The notes beneath the pieces are model-generated. The model did not search any database and was not told the origin of the DNA. It was given only the letters and a program-made list of their open reading frames with translations. Shown here piece after piece: positions 4,479 through 61,461 of a stretch of DNA of 64,000 nt (its first letter is position 1; each line of letters begins with the position of its first letter). Source of the DNA: Gracilaria domingensis (Eukaryota > Rhodophyta > Florideophyceae > Gracilariales > Gracilariaceae); contig VCMS01000086.1 of assembly GCA_022539475.1 (NCBI GenBank), forward strand, positions 62,001 to 126,000, written 5' to 3'. Made by a program: the position numbers and the translations under genes.

Positions 4479-5947
4479 TCATTCATAAGTGTGCATTACA
4501 GAAACAGGAGCTGGCTGAATGGGGTCAACCCATCGTTCATCTTCGTATTCAGATTCAAAGCGATCCTCAATCGGTGCAGGTGATGTAATGACTTCCGCCC
4601 AAGATTCAGCTTCGCCTGTGACCTCCGCAAGCGGTTCGGGGGAAACAATAAGCTCCTCAAATGGCTCGGGTTGTGGTGATTCGTAGTAGTAGTCGCTCGA
4701 GTAACAGCGTGCGTCATAGGAGTCATAGTACTCATCAGGCGGACATTCTCCACACTCATCTGCCTCAGAAAGGTATACCTGTCCCCGTGGACAAGTGAAG
4801 CACGTCGTCGATCCGGGTGGTGCAAAGCTTCCTTCCATGCAATACTGGCAATAACGCTGATGGCCATGCGCCCTAAAATGATTAAGAGGGCATTCAGATG
4901 CTAGAATTTCCCTGAAGGACATTCGATGCATTCCGAAGAGCCTGGAGCGGTAAACGAGTTCCCACCGCATGGATAGCACGAGTCCAAAACATTCGGCGAG
5001 TCCGTGTATGATCCGGAATAACAATCGATGCATTCGGATGAGTAACTTTCATAGAATTTTCCAGGTGGGCATGTGCCGCAGGTGCCGTCGTTCATCAGCG
5101 CTTCCCCAGCAGTACACTGAACACACTCCGAAGCGCCATAAGCGGAAAATGCGTTCCGACCACACGGATAGCACGAATGTAATACATTCGGCGAGTCCGT
5201 GTATGTTCCAGAATAACAATCGAAGCATTCGGATGCGTAACTTTCATAGTACTTCCCAGGTGGGCATGTGCCGCAACTACCGTCGTTCATCATCGCCTCT
5301 CCAGCAGGACACTGGACACACTCCGTTGAGCCTTCAGTGGAAAATGCGTCTCGGCCGCACTGGTAGCACGACCCCATGACATTTGGAGTGTCAGTGTACG
5401 TTCCTGGGGGACATTGTGTGCATTGGAGAGGGTAGGTGTCATAGTAGGTTCCTGGTGGGCACGTTGCACATGAACCATCCTCCATCAACATCTGTCCCTC
5501 AGGACAGGAAGTGCATTCAGAAGAGCCGATTACGGAGTACGAACCTCTCGCGCATGGCAAACACGGACCTAGTCCGTGTTCCGCTTTGAAGAATCCATAA
5601 TCACATTGCGAGCAGTAACTACCGCTGAGGTATTTCCCAGGTGGACAGGTTCCACACTCTGTTTCATCTATAAGAGCTTGTCCCTCTGGACAGTAGATGC
5701 ATTCAGTTGCTTCTGTGCCAGAATATGTGCTTGGAGGACAGATAAGGCATTCGGTTTGACCGGCTTGCGGCTGATATGTGCCAGAGTAACATGAATCACA
5801 ATATCCGTATCCTTCATCACGCGTCCCTGGTGGACAGATGGTGCAGGTTCCGTTGGAAGCCTCAGTAAATCCGGGTTCGCAAGGGGGGCTGGCTAGCGCA
5901 CCACAGAGGAAAAGGACACAAAGGAGAGAAATGCGGGAAAAGGACAT
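4479..5947 (-). CDS. Secreted Cys-rich GCC2/GCC3-repeat protein (frame broken once)
   Basis: The protein starts with a signal peptide (MSFSRISLLCVLFLCGALA); I chose this ATG at 5,947 because the frame extends 27 codons further upstream without signal character. It then holds about eight repeats of roughly 45-50 residues with the pattern CPPGxxx...CxxC...CxxCPxGxxL...G.CGTCPPG, typical of GCC2/GCC3 (ephrin-receptor-like) Cys-rich modules, and ends in an acidic Pro/Glu-rich tail. The reading frame changes once near 4,900: upstream reads ...CPSGKF, downstream resumes with ASECPLNHF, which matches the corresponding repeat of its neighbours. A small out-of-frame deletion or a sequence error explains this better than an intron, since none gives a good fit. 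Two paralogs follow on the same strand (7,214-8,158 and 8,875-9,839). Likely an extracellular or cell-wall protein; ligand unknown. Confidence 0.75.
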
Positions 5948-7213
5948 GTTGAGATGCGCTGATTGTAGGGACGAGCAGAAGGTTGGGATGGAACTGTCCA
6001 CGAAAAGGGTGTTCATTATTAAATACATGAGCTGCTTGGGAAAGATGAAAAAGTGGGCGCCATGGTGTTCAAGGTGTAGAGCTGCATCGGAAGGTGGTCA
6101 AGGACAAAGCGAGCACATCGTTGGCAATGCTATCAGAAAGCACCGTGGCTGTGGAAGATGCATTGATGGCTCGGTGTTGACAGGGAAAAGGGAACAATTA
6201 TATGGAACAATATGGCATATAGAGATCTGTATGTCTCTAATAGATTTGCAGAGAGAAGAGCGGGAGGAGGGTCGCTGCAGAAAAATGCACGGAAGCCAAC
6301 GAGGTTTACAGGTAATCGCTGCGCACGTGTGTGACAGCTGTAACCTTCTTGCTGCAAGATGCGACATAGTAGTTCAAAGTTTTGAATTCGAATCTATGTG
6401 TAGTCCGGACTCCGAACTTCAGAGTGCACAAGATGCTGGCGCACAATGGTAAACGGAAAAGCTGGGCTTCCACCTCACTTGTCCCTCTCTGGGAAGGGTA
6501 GGCAGTTGCAAGAACTCCCCGACAAATCTCTTTCTCAGTTGTGCACTCACTCTCCCTCCGCGTTACACACGACTTGAAAGCAGCCGACCAGTTTAATGGT
6601 CGCGACGGTCTGTTCACGTTCATGACGGGAACCTCACACTCAGCTGAAGAGTCATCTGTCGCGTTGCAGGAATCCAACGCCTGCGTAGACCACCAGAGAT
6701 GGAGGGCGTCCACTGTTGAAGGACGCAATGAGCCTTCTGACGTCGCACGCCACGCGTTCCACCGTGATACTCACCAAGCGACCGAGTTCGCAGGACAGGT
6801 GGCTCGGCGGAGACATCCAGCAGAAAGCACTCTTTGATGCTTCGTCTGCTCTCCGAAAGAACAGCCCGATTCAGCTCCCTTGAAATGGAGCTGTAAGCGC
6901 TACAGAGCAGTCAACGTCATGATGGCCGAGAATCGAAGGCTGGAAGCACACGGGGCATCGTTGGAAATTGTGGCACACGTGTACTATGCTATATCAATCC
7001 CGATGCATACGAAAGCGCCGTTGTGTTTTTGAAAAAGCACAAACTTTTATTGACTTTTGATCTTTAAAGTCCTGGTCGATGATACAAAACTTAAAAATTT
7101 TTCACTCCCACAGCTTATCGCTACGATTGATATGATGGACGCATCATCATCGCAGACAACCTGTACATATGTACACATAATGCTTTACAGAGACTCTAAA
7201 TGCCGAGCGGCTT
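5948..7213. other. Spacer between Cys-rich paralogs
   Basis: This stretch separates the first and second Cys-rich genes. Open frames of 70-200 codons exist on both strands, but they overlap one another and show no motif, signal peptide or compositional support. I see nothing functional beyond presumable promoter sequence for the minus-strand gene ending at 5,947. Confidence 0.45.
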
Positions 7214-8158
7214 CTACTCTTCCGATCCACATCTGGCGGAAAAGAAGTCGTACGGACAGTCATCTGGGCACACCCCACATGCATCAATAGCTGCAATAAA
7301 TCTCTGCCCCAACGGGCATAAGAAACATGTCGAGGATCCCATTCGAGCGAAGCTGCGTCTAGAACAAGAATCGCAGCGGCGCAGTCCGCCTCTGCTGAAC
7401 CGGTTGTAGCCGCATGGCTCACATTCTAAAGCGGATTCATTGTAGAAGAAACCTGGCGTACATTGAGGCTCACAGTTCTGCGAGCTCTTCGAATATACCT
7501 GCCCAATTGGGCACGTGAAACACGCCGCGGCTCCTCCAGATGCAAATGAGTGTGCTCCGCATGAGAAACATCTGCGCATCACGTTTGGAACGTTTGTAAA
7601 AGTACCAACGGGGCAATCTTCACAACTGAAGCGGGAGCCACTGAAGAACGTGCCCGGTGCGCATCGTCCGCAGCTCCCATCTGCCATGACCGGTGCCTCT
7701 CCCTCAGGGCAAATGGTACAGCTTACGGAACCAAACATAGAGAATCCGCGCAATGGACAAGGTAGACACGGACCTGGGCCCTCCTCCGCTTTGAAAAATC
7801 CTGAGGCACAGCTGATACACGCGGAGCCAGAGTCAGAACCCAAAAGCTCCTTCCCAGCAGGGCAGACTTGACAGGTTCCGTTCGGAAGAAGGGCTTGTCC
7901 GTCTGGGCATGATCCGCAATTCGTTGCGCCAAAAGTGGAATCTGTTCCTGTTGGACATGGGAGACAGGAGCTTTGACCGCCAACAGGCTGAAACGTTCCA
8001 AGACGGCAGGACTCAAAAGAATCCGAAATTCCGGTAAAAGTGCCGGGCTGACATAGTTCGCATGATTGGTTTCTTCCCGATTGTGAGCCAGGAGGGCAAA
8101 TTTCTTGAGCTAACACAAAAACAAAACACAAAATCAGAGCAACCAGCGAAATCTTCAT
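7214..8158 (-). CDS. Secreted Cys-rich GCC2/GCC3-repeat protein, intact
   Basis: A 314-residue protein with a signal peptide of about 18 residues (MKISLVALILCFVFVLAQ) followed by Cys-rich modules through to the C-terminus. The repeated pattern is CxPGxFxP...CLPCPxG...CGxCPxGQALxxNGTC, matching GCC2/GCC3 ephrin-receptor-like repeats. It is the only one of the three local paralogs with an unbroken frame, and it is closest to the 8,875-9,839 copy: shared blocks include SGFFKAEEGP, CLPCPL and STCFLCPxGQ near the C-terminus. All three copies lie on the same strand, so tandem duplication is the simplest origin. The role is probably extracellular; no catalytic residues are visible. Confidence 0.85.
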   Translation of the reverse strand: MKISLVALILCFVFVLAQEICPPGSQSGRNQSCELCQPGTFTGISDSFESCRLGTFQPVGGQSSCLPCPTGTDSTFGATNCGSCPDGQALLPNGTCQVCPAGKELLGSDSGSACISCASGFFKAEEGPGPCLPCPLRGFSMFGSVSCTICPEGEAPVMADGSCGRCAPGTFFSGSRFSCEDCPVGTFTNVPNVMRRCFSCGAHSFASGGAAACFTCPIGQVYSKSSQNCEPQCTPGFFYNESALECEPCGYNRFSRGGLRRCDSCSRRSFARMGSSTCFLCPLGQRFIAAIDACGVCPDDCPYDFFSARCGSEE

Positions 8159-8874
8159 CGCAAAGTACAGCTAGAAAGCATCCGAGATCAGAACCTCTGA
8201 CGCCTCTTGGAGGTGAGAAAGCGGAAGAAGGTTGTATTAGACTGAAGCGTTAGTCAGAAATCTGTTCTATGGTGACCCTAAACAGTCTTTGGTTCTATCT
8301 CAACGAATGAGAAGTGGGCAACAGGTCACTAGGTGTCGGAATCCGACACTCGATATGTTTTTGCTTGGTTAAAACCCAGATTCCTTCGATCGAGTGCTTC
8401 AGACATGGGATAAAGAACGTAACTCCGGTTTTTCTTCCGAATATAAATTCGTAACTTTGGATACACCAATAATGTAGGTCCCAGGCTCCGGCAGGTCCCT
8501 GTCGGGGGCCTTCGAGAACTGTTCACCGTTCATGAAAGTTACGAGTGATTTTCATCGCGCCGAGGTTGACCTTGACCAATTTCTACGGTGCTCAGATCTC
8601 ATTTATTGATGCTCATCATCAACTCGCCCCTTCGCATGCAGTCAGGCCGTACAGTTGCTTCAGCAGCAGTCTGACGTACAAGGGTATTCGTCTTTCACTT
8701 TCAACAAATGGGGAAATCTGATTCGTACGTTGCTCGTGCGATTCGTAGAAACAACATCAAAATATCAATCAGCACAGCGATCCGTGAAGCTGGTAATAGG
8801 TCTCTGTTTGGAACATTTAGGTCAGGATATAATCTTGGTGAAACTGGTAGCATGCCTTTAGTGCGAGGGATCTG
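8159..8874. other. Spacer between Cys-rich paralogs
   Basis: No supported gene. The short open frames (60-70 codons) have no recognisable features. It probably carries the promoter for the gene ending at 8,158 and the 3' end of the next copy. Confidence 0.45.
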
Positions 8875-9839
8875 TTAGAATCCAAATCCACATGTGGCCG
8901 AACAGAATTGGTAAGGTAAATTTTCTGGACACTCTCCACAACCATCAATATCAGGAATATAGTTCTGTCCAGGAGGACATAAGAAACAAGTAGAAGAACC
9001 TATTCTGGCAAAACTACCTTCCGAACAAGGTATGCATGTAGTCGCTCCACCCTGACTGAACTTGTTGACTTCGCACGGCTCGCACTCCAGTCGATCGTAA
9101 AAAAAACCAGGCCCACACTCAGGCTCACAGCTCTGTGTACTGTTAATATAGACCTGCCCAATGGGACATGTGATGCATTGGGTGCCGCCACCCGTCGAAA
9201 ATGAATTTCCTCCACATGAAAAACACTCGCTCATAACGTTTCTTAAGTTTGTAAAGCTTCCAGCCGGACATGGAGAGCAAGCCGTGCTGAATCCCACGAT
9301 GTCTAACAAAGGGACAAGGCTTTCATCGAAAAACGAACCAGGTGGGCATTCCCCACAGCTTCCGTCTGCCATAATCGGAACCTGCTTCTCTGGGCAAAAG
9401 ATGCACTCGGTAGCAGCAAACTCTACGGGGAAGGAACCTAGTGGACAAGGCAGGCAAGGGTCTGGACCCTCCTCTGCTTTGAAGAAACCACTTCTGCATG
9501 GCCAACACTCCAATCTGTCATGTTGACTTCCTCGCCTGCCGGGCAGAAATGACACGTTCCGTTCGGGGAGAGAGCTTGCCCCTCTGGGCATGTTCCGCAC
9601 ATGGAGGCGCCTCTCACCGATTTCGTCCCTGGCGGACATGGGAGGCAAATATCCTGACCCGGTAGGGGCTGAAACGTGCCAGGTTCGCAGGACAAACAGA
9701 AAGTAAAGCTTCCCGTAGCACTGCCTGGTTCACAAGCTCTGCACGTATTATTAAAGAACGGTTCAGAGCCTGGAGAGCAGTTACTCTGAGCGGCGATACA
9801 AGATATAGATGCGAAGAGAGCAAGCACGAAGATGTTCAT
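8875..9839 (-). CDS. Secreted Cys-rich GCC2/GCC3-repeat protein (frame broken once)
   Basis: This is the third paralog. It opens with a signal peptide (MNIFVLALFASISCIAAQ) and the same module order as the intact neighbour at 7,214-8,158. The first ~108 residues read in one frame up to CPAGEEVNMTD, and the remainder reads in another frame from LECWPCRSGFFKAEEGP onward; the intact paralog has the continuous equivalent CPAGKELL...CISCASGFFKAEEGP. The break is near 9,515-9,525 and looks like loss of a very few bases. Corrected length would be about 320 residues against 314 for the intact copy. Either a recent pseudogene or a base-call error. A TATAAATC on the minus strand at 9,976-9,983 lies about 140 bp before the ATG. 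Confidence 0.75.
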
Positions 9840-11120
9840 CGTCGAAGCCCAAAATTGAAAATGGAGACCGGAATAGAATGAGGAGATCTCGCGCTCGTAG
9901 AGTCGAGGAAGCGTAAGAAGTCCGTCATAAGCTGCTTACGAAACAGACCACTTCAGTGCGGTACTGGCTGCAGGTGATTTATATCGCAGCGAATAAGAGG
10001 CAAGCAACAAGGTTCGAGGTGTTTGTTGCTTTTAGTCCTCAAAGCATCTTTTTGAGCTCAAAGTTACATAAATCATTGCTCTTGTGTTTTTCTGCAGTTC
10101 AAATCAAATACCCTTGTAGAGCGGAAACACAATGAACACATTGGGCAAATTTTGTCGTACAAGGCATTCGGAAACGTTTGTACCGTTGGTACCAGGACAT
10201 GATCACATTCGAATGTAGGTGACCTTGCATCTATGCCGTAAAGTTCGGCATAGATCGAAGCTTGCATGAATAGTATTCTTCGACGTCCTACGTTTAATTC
10301 TCTTGCGGAGCATACCAGGGGTAGTGCTATTGTGCTCAACTGGGGACAGGTCGCTGTAATTCAGCGCCGGAGAATAACGGCGTGGACAAGTAAGCGCGGT
10401 GCACACGTACAATACAAAGTGAACGTGTTGCCAAAAATATCGAAGATGTCAGTCAGTCAGTTTGGCATTGGATTTGAGCCGCTACGACATCATGCCGTGT
10501 TGATGTCGACATGACGTCGCAGTGTTTCTAGGACTGTTGCAGCCTTTTGCCGTTCTGTTCCCACCGGTACTACAAAGATACACGTCGCAGCGCTTTGAGG
10601 CGCTGCAGACGCTGCTCTAGCTCCGCAGCTTTTTGAGTCGTACAAGTAGATCCGTTAAGATGTGTGGCGATCAGCAGCTATCAGCACCACACAAGATGAT
10701 TCGTTCGCCGCCTTGCTGCGCAAGCCGCTGTACCGTGTTGTGCCAGCGCATTCTCGGAAATACGAGAGGTCCCATGGCCGCAGTTTCCATGTTGAACGAT
10801 ATCAGCTGTTTCCATCTGCAGCTGAGTGCACCAAGTGAAAGGATTCGCTCATGCACACTCGAGAGACGATGCGTCATGTTCATGGATGGATTCGTGAGCG
10901 TTGTTTCCGCATCAAAATCTGTCATCTACATCGGATCCAAAATCAATTTGCCGATCTCTTTCGAGTTTGATGTGTCATATGTGGCACTTTGTCATATGTG
11001 GCAGAGTTGTAAACCGGGGCGAACCTTCTGGAGCCTTGCCGGCTGCAGCGAGTAAGAGCCTCGGCGCGATCTCTGCGATCCTCTATCTGGCAGAATCTGA
11101 GCATGCTTCCGTCCTATAAG
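9840..11120. other. Intergenic; one doubtful plus-strand open frame
   Basis: No firm gene. A frame with an ATG at 10,660 runs to 11,055 (about 130 codons) and contains an internal echo, QLSAPHKMIRS and QLSAPSERIRS, about 55 codons apart, which could mean a small duplicated protein or just a DNA repeat. A 15-bp direct repeat (TGTCATATGTGGCA plus one base) occurs twice at 10,976-11,003. I do not recognise the translated product. Confidence 0.3.
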
Positions 11121-19655: not shown

Positions 19656-21776
19656 AAAACCTAGTCCCCTTTTTTGCGAAGGGATAGAAGAACTACCGAC
19701 ACGATACTCACAAGTGAAATAAAGGTGAAAATTTGAACTTCATTCGGTGTAGAAGGGTTGCCGTACACCCACCTCATTTATGCTCATATCTGTGTTAACG
19801 CATCCGTGAGCTGGTTGCACTCACAATAATCAGAATCTAGTTATTCAAGAGTACCAAGTAAGAGGTTTTCTGTGACGTCTACATGAAACATTTGAATATT
19901 AAAGAATAACCGAATATTAGTATTTCGATTTTTTTCCAGTTGCGTTTACATTTCATGTTTACCAAGCGTAAATAAAAAAATAAGAGGTTTTAGCAAAGTG
20001 TGCTGTAATGAATCTAAACAGAACTTCGTTTTAAAACCGAGAGCATCCATTCCTCAAGTACATATTTCAAATAAGTTGAAAGTGCTTCACTTTCAACAAT
20101 TTCATCTTTAAATCACGAATTTAGGTTTCGCCCTCACTCGCCTGCGCCCGCCTGACAGACACTCAGATTTTCTGACCCAGTGGCTGATGCTCACCGGTTC
20201 AGAAAAACTCAGAAGATAGGAATCTACACGTACGTCACATGCAATTCTGGATTTGGCGTATAAGATCTCAAATGCGTTGGCATACAGCACAAACACCAGA
20301 TTCAACGAGAGGGTAAGAATAAGTAAAGGTACAAAGGTAACATAAGCACATCGGCGCTTGGGGAACGCCAGATGCTACAGAAAAGGATGCCAATTGGCTG
20401 TGTATGTCCGATAATCTTTGTCAACATATGCTGATTCCGTGAAATTTTTGTCGATCAACCACGAATGCTTGTCTGTGATAAAGGATTTGAAGTGTTTGGA
20501 CCGTTCAAAACATTATTCAAACCCAAATTTCTTGTTCGAAAATTTGTTAGATGCCTTACAATCGTTACTGGAGAGGTGCGACCAACAAAATAACAGCGTC
20601 CAGTTGTACGGAAACTCATGGGTTTTAGGTGCCTGATGCTTGGGAGTGGAAGCGTTTCAGAAGTCATAGACTTCCAACAGATATGTCGTCATTTACGGTT
20701 TGAAGCGATCCTATTTGTTCATGATGCCATTGTGGACTGGAAACCATCGTACTGCCTTTATCTTTCAAGAACAAAAAGAACGAAAGGGACGAGTGGAGAA
20801 TTCATACAGAAACAGCTCATGCGAGCATGGTAAAGTCACCAGTGGAACGTCCTTGTCGTCAGCAATACAACTTCTGATGTCTTACTCGTTCGTCTAACGA
20901 CGAGCTTGCCGCTCATGAGTGGCAACGGCAAGCTCGGTTGTTCCAACTGACATCGACAGCTAGCCATGGTGCCTGGAGGCAACAAGGATTCTAGGATTCT
21001 AGATCTTGAGAGGACCAAGCCTTACACTCGTCCACGCATTTGATTTGAAACTGCTCCACACATTGTGTGTACCGCGTTCGTTATTGCGCGTAATGTTCGG
21101 CAAGCGACATCAATATTATGCACTCACTATGGGACATGAGGCAACCATATTTGCTTTCACGTCAAAGATGCTCATCTAGGATTCTCCCATGTCCCCTCTT
21201 CATGAGCATCTATCACACTTCAAAGATGTCAATACCTTCATCATTGTGCATTGTCGTTTTTTTTTCTTTCGATAGAAGACCCATTCTTGTGTCATGATTG
21301 CGGATAACGGCACTTCGCTGAGCTAGTGTTGAAGCTCAACTCGATTCAGAACTCTATTGCAGACGGTGGTGCCTCTCATCTGCGTGCACATTTCATGCAT
21401 CAAAAGCAGCAATTCGCGACATATTTTTAGGGTCTCTACAGCCAACCGGTGAGTTGTCTCAAATTCAGTGGATACAATCACGTGACCAACTATGCGCAAA
21501 TGCAGCACTTGTTTGATATGGCGCATGATTCGAATCTTGCTCACATTCACTCCGTGAGATACCCTCAAACCAGCGCCGTTCTCGACGACTGACGAGAGGA
21601 TCAACTGCAGAACTACCCAAAACCTCAGTGCTGCCGCATAGCTGCATTCACCTCGCGAGACTCGGACATCCTAAACATGTTTGTGAGCGCACGACTCACT
21701 GACGAGCAGATTCCTCAAGTACTCCCCGGCCGTGTCATCCTTGCCCTCATCTTCATTCATCCCGCTCAAGGCCACA
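19656..21776. other. Gene-free stretch
   Basis: Two kilobases without a supported gene. Short open frames on both strands show no signal peptide or motif. The section 20,340-20,830 has several overlapping 60-70 codon frames typical of noncoding DNA. Confidence 0.45.
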
Positions 21777-23783
21777 ATGAAGCTCATCTACGCTGGCCGG
21801 ACGGCCGTTTTGGCTGTCGTGCTTCTCACTCTCGTTCTACACAACGCACTAGCTGTGTCACTCAACCGGTATAACAGCTGCCCAGATCTCGTAAGTTACT
21901 TCAAAACTAACGCTCGTTCCCGGGTTGGCGCATACGGGCTAAGCGACTCTCGAAACTTCGGAGGCTTCCGCCCCTTCTTTCCGTGTGGCCCGCTCAAATC
22001 TGGACCGGGACCGCAACCCGTATTCCTCGAAAGTGCTGCGTTCGGTGGCGACGGTGGGAACCAAGCCAGAGGTCTTTCTGCCACCACTTCGAGCAGCGCC
22101 GCTCCTCAATCTGCACCGCAGCCGACCGAGCAGGTCGCCGGGGTTGACTTTTCGGAGACTAATGTGCAGGTTGAAGGAGTTGATGAGCCGGATATCATTA
22201 AAACCGATGGCAGTCGAGTATTTGTGGTTCGTGGAAGAAACTTCTTCGTTCTTAGCGTCGGTTCTGGAGGGAAGAATGGTAGGGTGACCGGAAAGTTGAC
22301 GCTACCTTCGCATGCGAGGGAGATGCTTATCGAGGGCAATCATCTACTTGTGATCGCGCAGACGCACGGTAATATATACCCTACTCCTCGCGTAGCCAGT
22401 AGCGGCTTCTTCATTGATCAGAGCTTGACCACTGTCTACCAAATCAAGGTGACTCATGGCATCCCCAAGTTGGTCGCCACACTTCGCATGGAAGGCCGAT
22501 ATTTGAACTCACGTGAAGTTAATGGTGTGGCTCGAATCGTTATGCTATACAGGCCTCGTCTCAGGTTTTTATATCCAACATGCGTTATTCCTTATGCTGA
22601 AGCGGAAGCCCAAAATCAAGAGATTATCCAGAGTTCTAATGAAAGAGATTGGTACCCGAGCTACTCGCTCAAGGTCGAAGGTCAGAGTGGCGAGACGTCT
22701 GATTTGATATCTTCTTGCTCGAACGTGTACATCCCAGGAATCTTCCCAGGATTCGACTTGCTCACAGTTGTTACTCTGCCTGTCTCAGGAAGTCTGAGAC
22801 CAACAGGAAGCGTTTCGATAGTGTCCGAAGGCGATGAAGTGTACGCAACAGCCACTTCTTTGTACGTCACTACCACAGAATATCGTTGGGACTTCTTTGG
22901 ATTTGAGAATAGCATAAGATCTGGCAGGGACTTTGAGACATCCATCCACAAGTTCTCGTTGAACAACTATGGAGCAAACTATGTCGCAAGCGGAGAAGTT
23001 TCGGGAAGCGTACTCAACCAGTTCTCCATGCACGAGTACGACGGCTACTTCTTCATTGCCACCACCGATGGAGCCCCGTGGTGGGGTGCTCGCGACGAGA
23101 GTTCAAGCAAGGTCACATCATTCAAAACAAGCGGAAGAAGGCTGCAGAAGGTGGGCGAAGTGGGCAATTTGGGCCTGGGCGAGCGCATATTCGCTGTGCG
23201 ATATGTGAAGGACACGGCGTACGTAGTGACGTTCAGACAGATTGATCCGTTGTACATCATCGATTTGTCGCGTCCATGGTTGCTGAGAGTGACCGGAGAA
23301 TTGAAGATCCCTGGATTCAGTTCGTACCTTCATCCGATATCTCCCGGCCGCATTCTTGGTGTTGGTCAGGATGCCACTCCTGAAGGAAGAACCACGGGAG
23401 CGAAGGTAACTCTATTCGACGTGTCAGATAAGACAAACCCAACTGAGCTTTCCTCATGGACGTTGCCTGGAAGCAGCACTTCTGCACAATGGGATCATCG
23501 CGCGTTCTTGTACTGGGAACCCGAGTCCGTTGCGGTGCTTCCTGTTTCGGCATACTTGAGCTCGAATCGGTTTATCGGGTCGGTGGTGTTGGACGTTTCG
23601 GAAAGCGATATCCGAGAACGGGGTCGAGTAACGCATGAACCCCCATCGTCGAGCAGGTATTCACCGTCGATTGAACGAAATGTCGTGCTGGGTGGTGAAC
23701 ATCTGTGGTCGTTGTCGTCCAAGCAGATTCAAGTGAACAACATTAGGGACTTGTCGAAGGAGTCCGTTACTACGCTAAACTGA
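21777..23783 (+). CDS. Secreted beta-propeller domain protein (bacterial/archaeal type)
   Basis: A 668-residue protein beginning at the ATG that opens the signal peptide (MKLIYAGRTAVLAVVLLTLVLHNALA, residues 1-26). After a Ser/Gln-rich linker comes the hallmark of the secreted beta-propeller family usually found in archaea and bacteria (PF09826 type): ETNVQVEGVDEPDIIKTDG at residues about 127-145, followed by repeated blade-like segments such as FVVRGRNFFVLSV, TSLYVTTTEYRW, QFSMHEYDGYFFIATTDG, ERIFAVRYVKDTAYVVTF, PLYIIDLSRPWLLRVTGELKIPG and LWSLSSKQIQ, which fit a propeller that runs to the C-terminus. It is expected to be extracellular; the ligand is unknown. The family's distribution makes an ancient transfer from prokaryotes likely. 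The gene shows no intron. Confidence 0.88.
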   Translation: MKLIYAGRTAVLAVVLLTLVLHNALAVSLNRYNSCPDLVSYFKTNARSRVGAYGLSDSRNFGGFRPFFPCGPLKSGPGPQPVFLESAAFGGDGGNQARGLSATTSSSAAPQSAPQPTEQVAGVDFSETNVQVEGVDEPDIIKTDGSRVFVVRGRNFFVLSVGSGGKNGRVTGKLTLPSHAREMLIEGNHLLVIAQTHGNIYPTPRVASSGFFIDQSLTTVYQIKVTHGIPKLVATLRMEGRYLNSREVNGVARIVMLYRPRLRFLYPTCVIPYAEAEAQNQEIIQSSNERDWYPSYSLKVEGQSGETSDLISSCSNVYIPGIFPGFDLLTVVTLPVSGSLRPTGSVSIVSEGDEVYATATSLYVTTTEYRWDFFGFENSIRSGRDFETSIHKFSLNNYGANYVASGEVSGSVLNQFSMHEYDGYFFIATTDGAPWWGARDESSSKVTSFKTSGRRLQKVGEVGNLGLGERIFAVRYVKDTAYVVTFRQIDPLYIIDLSRPWLLRVTGELKIPGFSSYLHPISPGRILGVGQDATPEGRTTGAKVTLFDVSDKTNPTELSSWTLPGSSTSAQWDHRAFLYWEPESVAVLPVSAYLSSNRFIGSVVLDVSESDIRERGRVTHEPPSSSRYSPSIERNVVLGGEHLWSLSSKQIQVNNIRDLSKESVTTLN

Positions 23784-36717: not shown

Positions 36718-37563
36718 ATGCCGTCGTCAACAACAACAGCCCTGGGAGAAAAGGCGGCAACCTCACCGCTCAAACTTCTGTGGCTTAATCCGGTCAACAC
36801 GCCTGACTATGACCAAGCTTTCGCGAGCATGATTGCACGAGTGAAGCTTCCAAATGTGGAGGTGCATGTCATGTCCCTTAAGCTTTCGCAGCACATAAAG
36901 CTGGACAATCTCGAATGGAGAGTCTTCGAGAGCTGCATTTGGAATTCTGTCACACGCATAGCCCACTTTGCAGCGACCAACAATTTCGATGGGTACGCAA
37001 TCGGGTGCTTCTACGACACTGCTCTCGAAGAAGCTCGGGAGGTCTCCGGAGAAGCTATAGTTGCGGCTCCTTGCGACGCCTCGCTCAAGGTCATTTCCAA
37101 CCTCTGTAATCGCTTTTCTGTGATCATCGGCGTCGAGAAATGGAAGGTGCAGATGGAAGACCGCATTCGTCATTATGGCTACCATAAAAAGCTTGTATCG
37201 TTCCGTGCTATTGGCATGCATGTCGAAGAGTTACAGACCGACCGCAAAAAGACGGAGCAGGCGATGCGGGACGCTTTGAGGAAGGCAAGGGACGAGGATG
37301 GCGCAGAGGGTGTTATTCTTGGATGCACAATTGAGTTTGGCTTCTATGCCGTGCTTCAGAAGGAGTTCGATATGCCTGTGATTGACGCTGCCCTCGCCTG
37401 CTACAAGGAGATGGAGCATGCGGCCATGAATAAGGTACAATTCGGGTGGAAGCCAAGCCGACTCAACAGCATGGAGCCTCCGAGCAAAGAGCGAATCATA
37501 AAGAGCGGTGTGTTCGCTGAGCATGCCCCAATTGGTAATCTTATTGTAGTGACGAAAACTTGA
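36718..37563 (+). CDS. Asp/Glu/hydantoin racemase family enzyme
   Basis: A 281-residue cytosolic protein without a signal peptide. Both catalytic cysteines of the superfamily are visible in their usual settings: Cys97 in DGYAIGCFYDTALEEAR and Cys203 in GAEGVILGCTIEFGF, with the N-terminal LLWLNPVNTPDYD segment typical of the hydantoin racemase branch. These enzymes invert a carbon next to a carbonyl by two-base proton transfer between the cysteines; hydantoin racemases act on a cyclic amide. Length is slightly above the usual ~240. It precedes the cyclodipeptide synthase-like gene by 1.3 kb on the same strand, which raises the possibility that its substrate is a diketopiperazine. That link is inference; amino-acid or hydantoin racemisation remains possible. 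Distribution of the family is mainly bacterial and fungal. Confidence 0.85.
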   Translation: MPSSTTTALGEKAATSPLKLLWLNPVNTPDYDQAFASMIARVKLPNVEVHVMSLKLSQHIKLDNLEWRVFESCIWNSVTRIAHFAATNNFDGYAIGCFYDTALEEAREVSGEAIVAAPCDASLKVISNLCNRFSVIIGVEKWKVQMEDRIRHYGYHKKLVSFRAIGMHVEELQTDRKKTEQAMRDALRKARDEDGAEGVILGCTIEFGFYAVLQKEFDMPVIDAALACYKEMEHAAMNKVQFGWKPSRLNSMEPPSKERIIKSGVFAEHAPIGNLIVVTKT

Positions 37564-38882
37564 GTCATCGTTTGTCTCAGAATGACGCTGTGCAACAGAT
37601 TGCGCGTGTCTTTCTCCTCACATAAAAAATACAAAACCGTCCCAGAGTATACCAACACCGCCGTGCATGGATTCGTAGTCAGTGTTTCCCTTCTGCAGCA
37701 TGATTGCTCACTTCTCAGGCTTTTCTCCGTGCCAATTTTTGGGAGGAGTTTTCGCAGGCGGCCCTAAGATGCGACGCAACTGACAAACAGCATTGGTGCT
37801 GTGGGACAGTTTGCCACAATAATGATGGCTACTGGGCGCAATGTATGGTACTTGTAGTGATGCCGGATGAGGAGCTGTGCCTCAGAAACGAGACTTGGGG
37901 AAACATTTTGCGCACCTTTCGTATGCCTCTTTCGATCAACACCTTTAGCCCTCGTCGGATAGACATATAATACCTGTGATACATAGATATGTAGTTCTTG
38001 CACGATTCTCTACTGCTTAGGTAGTTGACGTGCCTTTATTGAAGTACGTGCATCTCAAAGATATAAATTTAGGCGTCCAACCGAGATATCGTTGTCGCAA
38101 CATAATTGAGGATCCGTAGAGATATCTGCAGCTCTGTTCTTATCTCGAACAACAACCGAACACAAGATTCTGGAAGAATTCGTCTTCCACTCTTTTTCTG
38201 AAGATGAAATACATGACGACGTCTGTCATCCATGTATTCCATAGAACTTCGAAATTGGAAGAGATATCTTCCATATCCTGAGGTGAATTGAGCACTCTTG
38301 GCAGTTTGTCTTCGTCCTATCACTTCCTTTTTGGAAATAGCAGAGAAGGCTCTGGAAACCACTCTTTTCCGAAAATGATAGCCTTTTAAGATTTCGAGAT
38401 GGAAGAGCTGCACCCGCAGTTTTTCCAATCAGGTACTATGTGACATTCCAATTATTAGTTTGAATGGTGCCAAGAGAATTGACAGTAAAGCGTCTCCAGG
38501 CTAATATTTGTTGAAGAAAGATGTGTGCGTAGCTCAAATTGAGAGACACAAACATATACTCCTAACCGGATCGGAGCCCCAAGTGCGCATGCCGGACTAC
38601 AATAGTCGATTTTGTTCCTTTTTAGTTACCTCTCTGGATGTAATTGGCTGTTAACATTACACGACAATGACGTATATTGGAAGAGTAACAGGAGTTGTGT
38701 GATAAGAAACTTAGTACGTCTACTGTTGCTTCTTGCCTAGAGCTGTCTAAGGCCGGCGGTCCACGCAGAAGATTCGGAGTGCGATCCCCTGCACCGAGTT
38801 CGTGTCGCTTCAGAAGCAGAAGAGCGAAGGATAGAATTGTAAAGACGACAAAAAAGCCGAGACATCTTTGGTTGAGCTAATT
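37564..38882. other. Spacer between racemase and CDPS-like genes
   Basis: 1.3 kb without a supported gene. The minus-strand frame at 38,069-38,428 has no usable ATG near its start and a basic, featureless product. No TATA box is obvious in the 120 bp before the CDPS-like ATG. The gap means the two genes are not an operon in any bacterial sense. Confidence 0.45.
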
Positions 38883-39710
38883 ATGAATGAAGTTAGCTGT
38901 GAGGAAGAGAAAGGCGGTCTCCATTTTCTGTTTGATTCCGAGAAGGAGATGTTACACCAACCCGGAGTGTTCGTTCCAATTAGTTTGCAAGTGCATTCGC
39001 CCTTAAAGCAGCCACATGGATCAAGACAGCTAGTGTGCTTTTTACATTCGTTACCGTATCCTTCTGTGGTTGTTGTGGCGGACTCGCTCAATCGGCATAA
39101 TGTCATGGCCTGTCATCGTCGCGGGCCGAAATGTAACATTAATAGAGAGGAAGCTCAAAGAAGAGCTATGGAACTCGGAAACTTGTACGTGGAGGCAATC
39201 TCTAACGCGATTGAAGAAAGTAAGAGTATCACCAACACCGGGAAGATCACTGTGGTTCGATGGGGAGACATAAAGGACGAAAATAAGCAGAAACAAGAAG
39301 ACACTTTGCACAAACATTATGCTGCCAACATTTTCTTCCGAGAACGTGTTGACGAGCTGACGATAGACTTCCTCAATCAGAGGAAACCGAATACGCGATA
39401 CCTTTCGTATCGAAAGATCCACGCAAGGAACTACATTCTTGGCGAACTCGCGATATTTATCACTGGGGTGTTGTACAAGGAGCAGCGTTATCGGACACTT
39501 GTTTACGCAACGAGCTCGATTGCAATGGCTAAGATAAAAGCCAACCAGGGTACAACGCTGTGGCACTTGGCGTATGATATTCTGACAAACCCTTTATTTC
39601 TCGATCTGAAGGAAGAATTGGTTGCAGCGGATGGGGGGGTTCAGGCACAACATGGATGGCCCATTCTCTCAATTCTGTCCAAACCGGCAGGCCAAACAAA
39701 TTTGTGCTAA
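38883..39710 (+). CDS. tRNA-dependent cyclodipeptide synthase (CDPS) homolog
   Basis: A 275-residue protein, starting at the ATG at 38,883 (the frame is open five codons earlier from a non-ATG codon). CDPSs take two aminoacyl-tRNAs and form a cyclodipeptide through a covalent aminoacyl-serine. The catalytic Ser is Ser34 in VFVPISLQVHSP, aligning with the GIS-x-x-N stretch of bacterial AlbC; a strand follows (SVVVVADSLNRHNVMA, like VVYVDTHIDEMLIA). Then comes an Arg-bearing helix (EEAQRRAMELGNLY). The decisive segment is RNYILGELAIF: Tyr184 and Glu188 match AlbC Tyr178 and Glu182, and Tyr208 matches Tyr202 at identical spacing. Residues at the AlbC 40 and 203 positions are Val37 and Ala209, so it is neither a standard NYQ nor XYP type. 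AlbC was recalled, not searched. No signal peptide; single exon. Confidence 0.8.
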   Translation: MNEVSCEEEKGGLHFLFDSEKEMLHQPGVFVPISLQVHSPLKQPHGSRQLVCFLHSLPYPSVVVVADSLNRHNVMACHRRGPKCNINREEAQRRAMELGNLYVEAISNAIEESKSITNTGKITVVRWGDIKDENKQKQEDTLHKHYAANIFFRERVDELTIDFLNQRKPNTRYLSYRKIHARNYILGELAIFITGVLYKEQRYRTLVYATSSIAMAKIKANQGTTLWHLAYDILTNPLFLDLKEELVAADGGVQAQHGWPILSILSKPAGQTNLC

Positions 39711-50544: not shown

Positions 50545-52930
50545 ATGAATTACAGTATGAACCCTGAAGGACTAGTACCATCATTACTGGTATTTGGAGT
50601 ATTACCAAGATTTTCTGGCATTCATACAAAGTTATCCGACTGAGAAGATAAAATGCAAGCCCTACGCACCGCAGGTTCTGAAATGGAAATTATTGCAAAC
50701 GAAATTCGATTGAAGAGAGCACTTGACGCACGACTACCAGAGACAGTACACTATGACCTCGAACCAAGACAAAAAGTCTTAATTTATAAAGAAAAACAAT
50801 TTCCAAACTGGACTTGACTTTTTGAAGTAACAAAAGTAGACGGAAAACAGATCTTTGCGAGGAACAAAGGAGGCGAAGTACAACATATTATAACACAAGC
50901 AAAGCCATACATCTCAGAAGAGAAACCAAAGAAGACTGGTATTCCAAATAATTTTGACCACTTGTTAAATTTCATGTTGAACAAGTATCCTTCAAAAGAA
51001 GAAAAGAAGGAAGACGAAAGCACTAACGAACATGACATATATGTAACAGAATTTTTGGCACCAAGAGACCAAAGGAAGGATTCACCAGAATTCATGAGGG
51101 CGAAGGAGAAAGAAATCGCTGGACTTATCCGAAGGGGAACATGGAAAATCGTATCATAAAACGAACGTCCTCAAAGTGCGAACATTATTGGATCACGATT
51201 TGTCTGCTGCATCAAGAGCCCAGAAACGTCTGATGAAGTATACAAAGCTCGCCTAGTAGCTCAAGGATTTTCGGACAAGGATCAGAACTATCTCGTTCAT
51301 AACGCGACAACTGTTCGACATACTTCCATAAGACTAATTATGTCACCAGCGGCAATATTAGGATGGAAAGTATGGAGCCACGACGTAACTCAGTCATACA
51401 TTCAAAGCAGCCAAAACCGAGCTAGAAACGTTTACATGAAACCTCCCAAAAAAATGAACCTAAACTCAGACAAAGTTCTCAAATTAATCAAACCACTCAA
51501 TGGATTACCAGACGCAAGCGATTATTGGAATAAGACGATGATATTGCATCTTAAGGATGACTTAAAGATGAAATCCCTAAAAAGCGATATCTCTTGTTTT
51601 TCCAAAATGAAAGGAGATAAGCTCTTGGGAGTTCTTGGATCATATGCGGATGACCCGATTAATTCAGGAAATAACGAATTTTTGCGTTTGACAGATACAA
51701 CAATGCAACAATTTGAGTCACGAGAACGAGTCTTGAATAACTTGAAACTCTCAGGCATGGATATTAGCGCATCCAAAGCAAACTACGAAATTAGCCAGAA
51801 TAACTTCCTAAACAAAAAAGCAGTTATGAAAGATATTCACGAGTATAAGGAGTGTCGCTGAAAAAGAGCTCAACTAGCTTGGTTGGTGTATTCCTATCCC
51901 CAAATATCATACTTTGCAAACCGAACAGCGCAAGTAACTGAAAAGAATTTTGACGCGAATCTAAGCAGGAAGATGAACAAACTTGTTCAGCATTTGAAAA
52001 CTGAAAAACTTTGCAGGCTCAAATACAAACTTATTGATATGGATTCGGCACACATTGGAGTATACAGTGACGCTTCGTTTGCAAATATTCAGGATATGAA
52101 AGCTCAATTGGGATACATGGTACTTTTATGAGACAAACATAATCGATGCAATATTACTCATTACAAAAGTTACAAAAGCCGGCGTGTGGTTTGCTCAGTA
52201 CTTGGAGAAGTTTACGCATTTGCAGATGCCTTTGACTACGCATACACCCTGAAACATGATCTCAAAGAATTACTAGGAAGAAACATACCCATCAAAATGT
52301 TCACCGATTCCAAAATCTCTTCGATGTTATCACAAAATCATCCGCAACTGCAGAAAAGATATTGCTAATTGATATATGTGCTGTTAGAGAAGCTTATGAT
52401 GATAACCAAAATTCGGACGTGGGATATATTCGTTCAGAACATAACCCCGCAGATGTGTTTACAAAGGAAATAAAAACCCAATTATTCAATCAAATTCTTC
52501 ATAAAATCATCAAACATCCAGTTGAGCAATGGTTTATTCGAGATTGAAATTGTAGATAATATTTTACGATGAATAATAGCTTTAGATAGAAAGCAAGTGT
52601 GGTTTGCCCTATACAATGACATGCCAAATAATTACTTGCATTTTACCACAATAGATAGAAGTGGTAGATGGCTATCATAGAAGGAGAGTTGAGAGTTTTC
52701 CTAGCCAATGCGAGGAAACCACGAAGCAATGGTTAAAAGAAGCGGACATAGAATAAACAACGTTTACTTAGGAGAGGGCGCTAGTGAAAGCCTATAAAAG
52801 CCACAGCTCAGGCTCCTCGGTACTAACGATTGTTTACGATCAACAGTAAAGAAAAAAGGTACACAACCTTCAACTGCTTCTACATCAGCTTCTACAGACA
52901 CTACATATTGCGAAAAAATTCCCAAAGCCC
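50545..52930 (+). mobile_element. Ty1/copia retroelement fossil
   Basis: Reads on the plus strand from the C-terminal part of integrase (with a GLVPSLLVFG segment characteristic of copia elements) through reverse transcriptase (Tyr-Ala-Asp-Asp at about 51,640) to RNase H, ending near 52,547 with the usual HNPADVFTK motif. About 380 bp after it may be a 3' LTR. Gag, protease and most of integrase are absent. It is broken, with several breaks, and is old. Its AT-rich composition differs from the gypsy elements nearby. Confidence 0.7.
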
Positions 52931-52979: not shown

Positions 52980-54110
52980 TCAGAATGAGTCTCACTCTTC
53001 TCAACTTTTCCAAACTGGGCTTCCACGGCCCATAATTAACGTAGAGAATCATATGGAGAGTATTTCATGTGAACAATTTTGCCGCATGTACCGCATGACA
53101 AAGACACAGTTTCGTCTTCTGGCAGACACGATACGACCTTCTCTAAAACGCTCACAGCGAAATCATACCCAGGCTGCGACGGCACTCAACGTCGAGATGA
53201 TGTTGTTTGTTACACTTCGTATATGGCTTGAGCTAGCTATTTGGACATAGGGTGGCCCTATGGAATAAGTTCCAGTACAGTATACACCTCATTCCAGGAA
53301 ACGCTGTGCGCATTAGATATGTTGCCACCCGAGGTTCGGTTCCCTAGGACTCAGGCAGAATTCACGCAAAGAGCTAATATGTTTTGTGAGCTGCGCCGAT
53401 CTCCGATCTTCGGTACAGTCGCTGCACTAAATGCAATCGAGATCCAGATAACAAAGCCGAAACGAAGCGATGTGAACGATCCTAAGAAGTACTTTGAACG
53501 AAAACGTCCTTTGCTGTGTGCGTTCTAGCCGCAGCACAGGTGGAATACAAGTTCTGCTTTGTGTCTGCTACGCATTCTGGGAGAACACAGGATTCTACGG
53601 CGTTCGCATCCGACAAAATTGTATGATCTCCTCAAAGGACCAGAGGTCCCTAATTGGGCTGTTGTTGCTTTTGACGACGGTTACTCAAATGAGTGCAGAG
53701 TGTTGGCAACGTATCCGGGGAAACATTTGAGTGGTTTGGAAGATTTTATTAACGCATATTTTTCTTCCTGTAGAACTGTGGTGGAACAGGCATTCGGTAT
53801 ATTGGTCTGTCGGTTTGGCATCTTTTGGTCGGCAATGCGCTACCCTCTGCACAAAGTTATGCTTATCACCATGGTAGCATGCACACTGCATAAATGTATA
53901 TTAGATGTGGACGATGGAACCTCATTCGAAACAATTTTAAGCCATGTAGACAATTGGGTACATGGGTCACCGATCATCCATTTGCAGAACAACTTGCACA
54001 TGGAGTCAGACAACATATGCTCCCTAAACCGAAGTCGAGAAACATCAGTGATGCGAGACAACATTGCTGTTCAGCTACAGCAATTCGGATACGTGAGACG
54101 CCGATAGTGG
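52980..54110 (+). mobile_element. PIF/Harbinger DNA transposase relic
   Basis: A DDE_Tnp_4-type transposase in pieces. Landmarks in order: an N-terminal helix-turn-helix-like region (53,053-53,250), TVAALNAIEIQI...DPKKYFERK (53,400-53,520), a stretch equivalent to HDSTAF near 53,600, AFDDGYSNE at about 53,665, and SSCRTVVEQAFGILVCRFG at about 53,765-53,830. The first catalytic Asp is Asn here (LNAIEI against the usual LDGI), an in-frame stop follows the helix-turn-helix part, and the frame shifts near 53,490 and again near 53,620, so it is dead. No terminal inverted repeats or 3-bp target duplication were found. It may have supplied transposition functions for the 3-bp-duplicating MITE at 59,491. 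Confidence 0.8.
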
Positions 54111-59923: not shown

Positions 59924-60195
59924 AGTGTCTCGCCGTTGTCTGGGCGTTAACCACGCTAAGACCCTATCTCATGGGGACCCATTTTCGGGTGCATACCGAC
60001 CATTCGGCCCTCTGGTGGCTCATGGAGATCTCCGAGCCCTCGGGTCGTCTTATGAGGTGGCGCCTCCGTCTATCGGAATTTGACTTCGATGTCAGGAACA
60101 AGAAGGGAACCCTGAACTTGCAGGCCGACTCACCCTCGCGTTTGGGAACTTCTGGTGAAACAGAGTCAGTCATCGACGATGAAATAGCATGATTC

Positions 60196-61461
60196 ATGAT
60201 GGAAGACCTGGAAGAGGAGACCGAGATTTTGGAAGACGTTTGCGAAGATATTCTCACCGCAGAACCGGCTGAACCACCGCCTGGTTCATTTGAGCCCATT
60301 ACGGCTGAAGAGCTTATACGGGAACAACACGAGGATCCTTTCTGTACGCAGATAAGGGCCCGCCTCAACAGGGGTTTTAAGCTACCCTTTGCCACCAATG
60401 ATCAGGGATTCCTTGTCAGGATTGTCGAAAAACGACCCCGAATTGTCGTTCCTCACTCCTTACAACGGAGAGTCCTCCACATCTCGCATTATGTGAAAAT
60501 AGGAGCTCACTGTGGTGGCAGTAAGTTGTACCTAACCCTCCGTAGGGATTTTTATTGGCCCGCTATGGCTTTCGAATGGTACGCAGTACGCCGCTCGTGC
60601 ACGGATTGCGCCAAGAACAACGTCAAACTGCGACGAGTTTCAAAGAAACTGAGGCTGTTTCCAGCTTCCGCTCCTCTAGATTTTGTCGCTATCGACTTTC
60701 TTGGTGAACTAATTCGGACTGCCCGAGGTAACCGATATCTCCTGGTTATTACCGACAGGTTTTCGAAACTCGTACGAACTGTTCCATTGAAACGGATTAC
60801 TGCGGCCGCGGTCGCTGAACCGTTTGTAACGCATTGGGTCTTTGTATACGGACCGCCCGTTCATCTGTTATCAGACAATGGCTCGCAATTTGCTGCGAAG
60901 TTCTTTCAGGACGTTTGTCGCATCTTGGATATCAAGAATTTGTTTACTACAACCTATCATCCCCAGTGTAATATGCAGGTAGAACGATTTAATCGTACTA
61001 TGCTTAACGCATTAAGATCCTACGTAGCGGATCACTCAAAGGATTGGGACCTGTACACTGACGCAATTACATATGCGTATAATACCCAGGTACATCGGGT
61101 CACGTCGTTATCGCCGTTTGAGCTCGTTCTTTCGAGAATACCGCCTCCGGTAGCAATTGAAGCTCAACCGACGTTATCGTCTACTCCTTCACCTCGGACG
61201 TACAGGGACACCTGTAAAAACTGGTTAAAGAACATTGTACCGGTTGCCCGGAAAGCCATGGAGAAGGCTCAACTTGCTTTCAAGAAGAATTTTGATCGCC
61301 GACTCCGCGGTAAGCGCCTGTGGTCACGGCTAACGACTTCGTCTTCGTACGAAAGGAATATTATAATCCTGAGAAGGAACGTCGACATAAGCTGTCTCCC
61401 ATCGCGGATGGACCGTATCGTGTTATCTCTGTCGCGCCCGACAGCGTCGTTCTCGACATAG
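60196..61461 (+). pseudogene. Integrase region of the chromovirus fossil
   Basis: Contains the HHCC zinc-binding region (HISHYVKIGAHCGG...CTDCAKNN), the DDE-type catalytic core (FVAIDFLGEL, LLSDNGSQFAAKFF and the QVERFNRTMLNALRSY helix) and the start of the C-terminal domain. Part of the fossil above. Confidence 0.75.

Follow-up and report, generated by a model that had tools for sequence, protein, structure and literature searches.

Cyclodipeptide synthases (CDPSs) are divided into two subfamilies, NYH and XYP, in the cited sections of PMC5816076 and PMC7566563. In the catalytic cycle of AlbC, as outlined in PMC5816076 in part, the first aminoacyl group is transferred to a serine, a second aminoacyl-tRNA gives rise to a dipeptidyl-enzyme, and ring closure follows. 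The eukaryotic CDPSs covered in the sections cited (PMC5816076, PMC2922099) have so far come from fungi and marine invertebrates. In the diatom Seminavis robusta the cyclodipeptide diproline acts as a mating attractant, and the relevant section of PMC8027222 lists only candidate CDPS genes of low conservation, none of which was regulated as expected. No description of a red-algal CDPS was found in the titles and abstracts of the open-licence literature searched. Citrullinylarginine serves as a nitrogen store in red algae (PMC12516527, cited in part), and a link between this dipeptide and the CDPS described below would be a bare guess that is not claimed here.

Racemases have been connected with CDPS products in at least one described system. 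NozR, a homolog of the Asp/Glu racemases, interconverts the stereoisomers of CDPS-made cyclo-Trp-Trp and requires Cys75 and Cys179 for this activity (PMC10156859, cited in part). Genes of the Asp/Glu/hydantoin racemase superfamily (PF01177) are also reported, in the section cited, to be enriched in cyclodipeptide-oxidase clusters without a CDPS (PMC11055893). The HyuAB-type enzymes use ATP to open lactam rings and are suspected to include hydrolases of cyclic dipeptides (PMC6061476, cited in part).

A divergent CDPS homolog in Gracilaria domingensis

The stretch analysed, hereafter the window, comprises 64,000 nucleotides of a 175,718-base contig (C86) in the 77.9-Mb, 680-contig assembly of Gracilaria domingensis, a florideophyte red alga; a red-algal source had been proposed in the original prediction, which was made from the letters of the sequence. 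A single open reading frame of 275 amino acids on the forward strand (38883..39710), with its ATG at 38883 and its stop codon ending at 39710, encodes a CDPS homolog. Reading of the codons places Ser34 (38982..38984), Tyr184 (39432-39434), Glu188 (39444-39446) and Tyr208 (39504-39506) where the original prediction had put them, and the S37/Y178/E182/Y202 residues of AlbC are thus matched by S34/Y184/E188/Y208, with the last three spaced as in AlbC 178/182/202. The equivalence of Ser34 with the nucleophile Ser37 rests on position, as the loop carrying it is poorly modelled.

The earlier suggestion that this protein lies outside the standard types was based on Val37 and Ala209, both of which are present. 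The Asn40/Tyr202/His203 trio of the NYH enzymes is replaced by Val37/Tyr208/Ala209, and at the codons corresponding to Y202-H203 of the NYH type and Y202-P203 of the XYP type (39504..39509) Tyr208 is retained while Ala209 takes the place of the proline, which occurs in none of the eight aligned family members. The suggestion therefore stands in substance, although the name it gave to one of the standard types, NYQ, was wrong, the published type being NYH. The red-algal CDPS family departs from both known residue types and is already partly visible in automatic annotation.

The CDPS assignment itself, which the original prediction had proposed to check with the PF16715 profile and a predicted structure, draws on two profiles, sequence similarity to CDPSs of solved structure and a comparison of folds. 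The window protein is matched by TIGR04539 (E=1.5e-7, 31.2 bits against a curated cut-off of 45) and PF16715 (E=9.7e-6, 25.9 bits against a cut-off of 27), both with significant E-values but below the respective cut-offs. As these are curation thresholds rather than structural criteria, the protein is filed as a divergent CDPS homolog and not as a proven CDPS. At E<=0.01, TIGR04539 matches all eight family members and PF16715 seven of them. In a six-frame search of the genome with PF16715 three of the six copies were listed, among them a copy on contig C234 that clears the cut-off with 30.5 bits; the window copy was absent from this list and is thus a weak member when taken alone.

When a profile of the whole family was compared with solved structures, all 12 distinct matches were CDPSs, the best being FoCDPS (31ee/31eg; E=1.3e-10, profile positions 36-206), where 'Fo' presumably stands for Fusarium oxysporum. 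FoCDPS nevertheless shares low identity with the algal protein and differs at the residue aligned with Tyr208. Fungal CDPSs include arginine-using enzymes. The CDPS of Parcubacteria bacterium RAAC4_OD1_1 (7qat, 7qb8) is 14% identical and has Tyr-Pro where the alga has Tyr-Ala, and the NYH enzyme AlbC of Streptomyces noursei (3oqv; 4q24) is 8% identical, the algal protein having no equivalents of N40 and H203. The predicted model of the window protein, of modest confidence (pLDDT 63.5, pTM 0.65, with residues 34-39, including Ser34, below 50), has the class-I aminoacyl-tRNA synthetase-like Rossmann fold of CDPSs. Foldseek gave seven matches at E<=0.001, all of them to chains of CDPSs, and on re-alignment of the 1000 top chains CDPSs occupied rows 1-26 of the best 50 (seven of these entries being one Parcubacteria protein), followed by Trp- and Tyr-tRNA synthetases. 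That the open reading frame is a CDPS homolog is hence practically certain. As judged from its sequence, the protein probably makes cyclodipeptides, and it would be a working enzyme that is probably cytosolic.

A multiplied CDPS family under purifying selection

The genome encodes at least six CDPS copies, that of the window included, on six contigs and without internal stop codons in any of the six. The five other copies share 49-60% identity with the window copy, whose closest public record returned is 60% identical. Three copies are publicly annotated as 'Cyclodipeptide synthase' and one as 'hypothetical protein', so that the family is not wholly unknown; the window copy and the copy on contig C50 appear to be without public annotation. 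Only two members beyond G. domingensis were found among the matches returned (P0003 and P0004), both on assembled contigs. Neither this paralog family nor the racemase gene described below featured in the original prediction.

In 13 of the 15 paralog pairs, those for which dS could be estimated, dN/dS values of 0.09-0.27 (NG86) indicate purifying selection, the values being rough as 11 of the 13 dS estimates exceed 1. Ser34, Glu188 and Tyr208 are invariant in all eight family members, while residue 184 in the Y-x3-E motif (39432..39446) is Tyr in five and Phe in three, and position 209 is Ala in seven and Trp in one. The positions that match AlbC P1-pocket residues 35, 185, 186 and 200 by a fixed offset vary between members, the pocket definitions used being those of NYH enzymes, to which the algal family does not belong. 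This variation suggests, as a lead from sequence comparison, that the copies may use different substrates, and copies differing at the putative pocket positions may broaden the range of products. If the family is a real algal CDPS family, it would offer a starting point, at sequence level, for studying the cyclodipeptide chemistry of algae.

Searches for relatives elsewhere returned little. None was found among 243 pattern matches in one scan of viral contigs for a viral source, and tblastn against plasmid records gave no match. The family profile yielded one weak match (17.7 bits, residues 60-116 of a 519-residue frame) in 299 genomes of one phylum, and PF16715 one match in 398 genomes of the same phylum, already known from close racemase-bearing genomes.

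A racemase gene upstream of the CDPS

On the same strand as the CDPS, and 1.3 kb upstream of it, lies a gene for a 281-amino acid protein of the Asp/Glu/hydantoin racemase superfamily (PF01177; 36718..37563), a candidate cyclodipeptide epimerase which scores 79.6 bits against a cut-off of 31. This is the only PF01177 match above the cut-off in the whole 77.9-Mb genome, two further matches falling below it (18.4 and 17.8 bits). The 1319 bases between the racemase stop codon and the CDPS start (37564..38882) hold only short open reading frames, the longest of 119 amino acids on the reverse strand. Superfamily membership is evident from the profile match and from both cysteines of the catalytic dyad, Cys97 (37006..37008) and Cys203 (37324..37326), each of which is Cys in all 15 aligned relatives.

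Among the best 120 of 569 matches, the closest relatives are P0007 and a 'Hydantoin racemase' of Gracilariopsis chorda (P0008), each 81% identical, followed by records at 77%, 72% (a lichen metagenome, Phylliscum) and 71%; the bacterial relatives among the matches listed include those of Sphingomonas (68%) and Novosphingobium (67%). Racemase relatives also occur in metagenome-assembled records of Phylliscum and Polycauliona (P0010, P0067), which may represent bacterial or algal sequence in those records. In a midpoint-rooted tree of 61 rows, comprising P0006-P0059 of 255-299 residues and nine more distant sequences, the four racemases labelled as algal (the label being assumed for two) form one group with 99/88 support, nested in a set in which the close members that carry a name are for the most part Alphaproteobacteria. 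The gene is, on this sequence comparison, probably of bacterial origin, and its place in the tree leads us to infer transfer from an alphaproteobacterium.

Diagnostic positions published in the cited section of PMC12661438 divide OpaE-like epimerases, with the consensus Val/Ile/Leu20, Tyr/Phe/Trp25, Val/Ile/Leu131 and Gly/Pro132, from allantoin-hydantoin racemases, with Asn/Asp12, Met17, Thr/Ser118 and Thr119 (KpAllR numbering), the latter group retaining its four residues at 100, 67.7, 84.2 and 55.6%, respectively. When these positions are transferred through the alignment with OpaE, the V26/Y31/I137/G138 residues of the algal racemase agree with the OpaE-like consensus at four of four positions and with the allantoin-hydantoin consensus at none. 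By these residues alone, and with reference to the positions in that section, the algal protein groups with the OpaE-like enzymes and not with the allantoin-hydantoin racemases. The same four residues are common to 14 of the 15 aligned relatives, bacterial ones included, and thus mark a wider group rather than single out the algal enzyme. The fungal epimerase OpaE (9qbx) aligns with the algal racemase over residues 17-256 (E=5.5e-11) and shares the four substrate-pocket positions of its group; according to the section cited, however, it acts on a nonribosomal peptide derivative (PMC12661438), and in the alignment its Phe163 stands opposite algal Val169, the common Val of loop B. NozR belongs to the same superfamily, likewise has two catalytic cysteines and works on a CDPS product, but in the part of its description cited its gene lies at a different locus from its CDPS whereas the algal racemase gene adjoins one, the two enzymes being likened here by these features.

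A possible two-enzyme pathway

The arrangement is consistent with a pathway in which the first aminoacyl group would move from aminoacyl-tRNA onto Ser34 of the algal CDPS and a second aminoacyl-tRNA would be joined with the help of Glu188 and Tyr184, a cyclic dipeptide (diketopiperazine) being released. The PF01177 racemase would then remove and return a ring alpha-proton by means of Cys97 and Cys203, giving a D-containing cyclodipeptide in which one or both alpha-carbons are epimerised, as NozR does with cyclo-Trp-Trp. The homology, the fold match, the conserved residues, the paralogs, the purifying selection, the physical pairing and the OpaE-like residues are observed; activity of the two enzymes, their product, the donor of the racemase and its action on what the CDPS makes are inferred. 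We consider it more likely than not that the racemase acts on the cyclodipeptide of the window CDPS or of a paralogous one, and the full explanation, a working algal CDPS with an acquired adjacent racemase yielding a D-containing cyclodipeptide, is somewhat favoured. The pairing with a racemase is new, the CDPS family having been partly named already, and it forms the testable part of the proposal, namely whether the gene pair could yield D-containing cyclodipeptides.

If genes are taken to be placed at random, a lone PF01177 gene would fall within this distance of one of the six CDPS genes with a probability of 2e-4 to 3e-4, a crude and post hoc figure. The longest contig is 6181 bases for both P0003, a CDPS, and P0007, the racemase 81% identical to that of the window, and both come from the same source type; the shared figure indicates that the gene pair probably occurs together on a second contig. 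The genome has one Hydantoinase_A match, which falls on a different contig in one frame of 1292 residues that is read as an ordinary 5-oxoprolinase, and no hydantoin operon thus seems to accompany the racemase. Among 21 comparisons of 600-base upstream regions, each against 20 shuffles, only that of the racemase with the window CDPS exceeded all shuffles (a shared word of 12 bases against a shuffle maximum of 11); one such excess is about what chance would give, and none of the shared words is convincing. The number of TATA boxes in the window is at chance level.

The racemase could instead be a bystander of a functional CDPS, with hydantoins, allantoin, amino acids or some other cyclic amide as its substrate. 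Its bacterial relatives argue for this. Of 99 racemase loci found, 80 were kept (L023-L102), and relatives of both HyuA and HyuB are present in 73 of these and joined by an M24 peptidase in 58, the assignments having been confirmed with Pfam in a few loci. The closest loci (L023-L029), whose racemases are 63-66% identical to the algal one, have HyuA and HyuB, mostly an M24 peptidase, and no detected CDPS. A single bacterial CDPS query, a weak test, detected none in the 80 loci, and a CDPS was present in one of the six genomes searched for the seven closest loci, away from the racemase locus. In addition, the racemase is found in Gracilariopsis chorda, with no CDPS of that species among the relatives returned, and the five other CDPS copies of G. 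domingensis have no racemase neighbour, since only one PF01177 match exceeds the cut-off. Against this, that sole match in 77.9 Mb stands 1.3 kb from a CDPS, the genes are probably linked on a second contig, and the pocket residues are unlike those given for allantoin and hydantoin racemases in the section of PMC12661438 cited. A bystander role is accordingly rather unlikely.

The conserved bacterial racemase-HyuA-HyuB-peptidase set is, by its gene content, a candidate catabolic system for cyclic dipeptides or hydantoins that would epimerise, open and cleave them. A tentative but quite possible extension is that the Gracilariaceae have a two-enzyme D-cyclodipeptide pathway, combining multiplied CDPSs outside the NYH and XYP types with a ring-epimerase drawn from such a bacterial set, which in bacteria may break cyclodipeptides down. 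If true, this would be, within the open-licence literature searched, the first description of such a pathway from the lineage of red algae and plants. Two further observations were made at the bacterial loci. One locus (L026), filed under Bacillus subtilis strain SK6B4, has the racemase locus layout of Pseudochrobactrum and is possibly mislabelled or contaminated, while the CDPS of Pseudochrobactrum asaccharolyticum (L103, 1465-2115, reverse strand) adjoins a 393-amino acid open reading frame that is P450-like by eye.

It is less probable still that the algal proteins have kept the CDPS fold for another use of aminoacyl-tRNA, such as aminoacyl transfer, deacylation or the formation of a linear dipeptide. 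The departure of the family from both the NYH and XYP trios, the replacement of Tyr by Phe at position 184 in three of eight members and the sub-threshold profile scores of the window protein would agree with such a function, as would the failure of fungal CDPSs in E. coli mentioned in the cited section of PMC5816076. Ser34, Glu188 and Tyr208 are, however, present in all eight members, and their AlbC equivalents are reportedly almost strictly conserved in active CDPSs, which renders this alternative improbable. A stretch of bacterial contamination or a decayed pseudogene can be dismissed as highly implausible: the named members of the racemase group are mostly bacterial, but the 175,718-base contig carries reverse transcriptase, integrase and sulfotransferase genes, the six CDPS matches on six contigs are free of stop codons and under purifying selection, and an 81% identical racemase occurs in a Gracilariopsis chorda record.

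Genomic surroundings of the CDPS genes

Elsewhere in the window, mobile element genes code for an RVT_2 reverse transcriptase (51160-51861), a DDE_Tnp_4 transposase-like protein just below the cut-off (53529-54107) and an LTR-retrotransposon integrase (60193-61461). The forward strand further encodes a sulfotransferase family protein (PF03567; 13391-14488) and a RidA-like protein extended at its N-terminus (PF01042; 25885-26643). Near the other five CDPS copies, a scan for tailoring genes applied Pfam to 16 of 59 frames, a set that includes CDPS fragments and in which introns were ignored. The 16 frames encode an EamA transporter, two alpha/beta hydrolases, a carbonic anhydrase, a beta-propeller protein and a kinase, as well as zinc-finger and cysteine-rich proteins, a DDE endonuclease and a gag protein; none of them codes for a P450, a methyltransferase or an oxidase. 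Several cysteine-rich open reading frames occur on the reverse strand of the window (4479-9935), of which the one scanned (4904-6097) has ephrin-receptor-like/TNFR-like repeats, and a similar frame is found near the CDPS copy on contig C50. Five PF09826 beta-propeller genes are present in the genome, and three of them occur on contigs with a CDPS copy. That at 21687-23783 in the window is separated from the CDPS by about 15 kb and that at C234:57733-59307 from the C234 copy by 3.3 kb, while that at C50:338660-340267 shares its contig with the C50 copy, a co-occurrence that possibly reflects an old segmental duplication.
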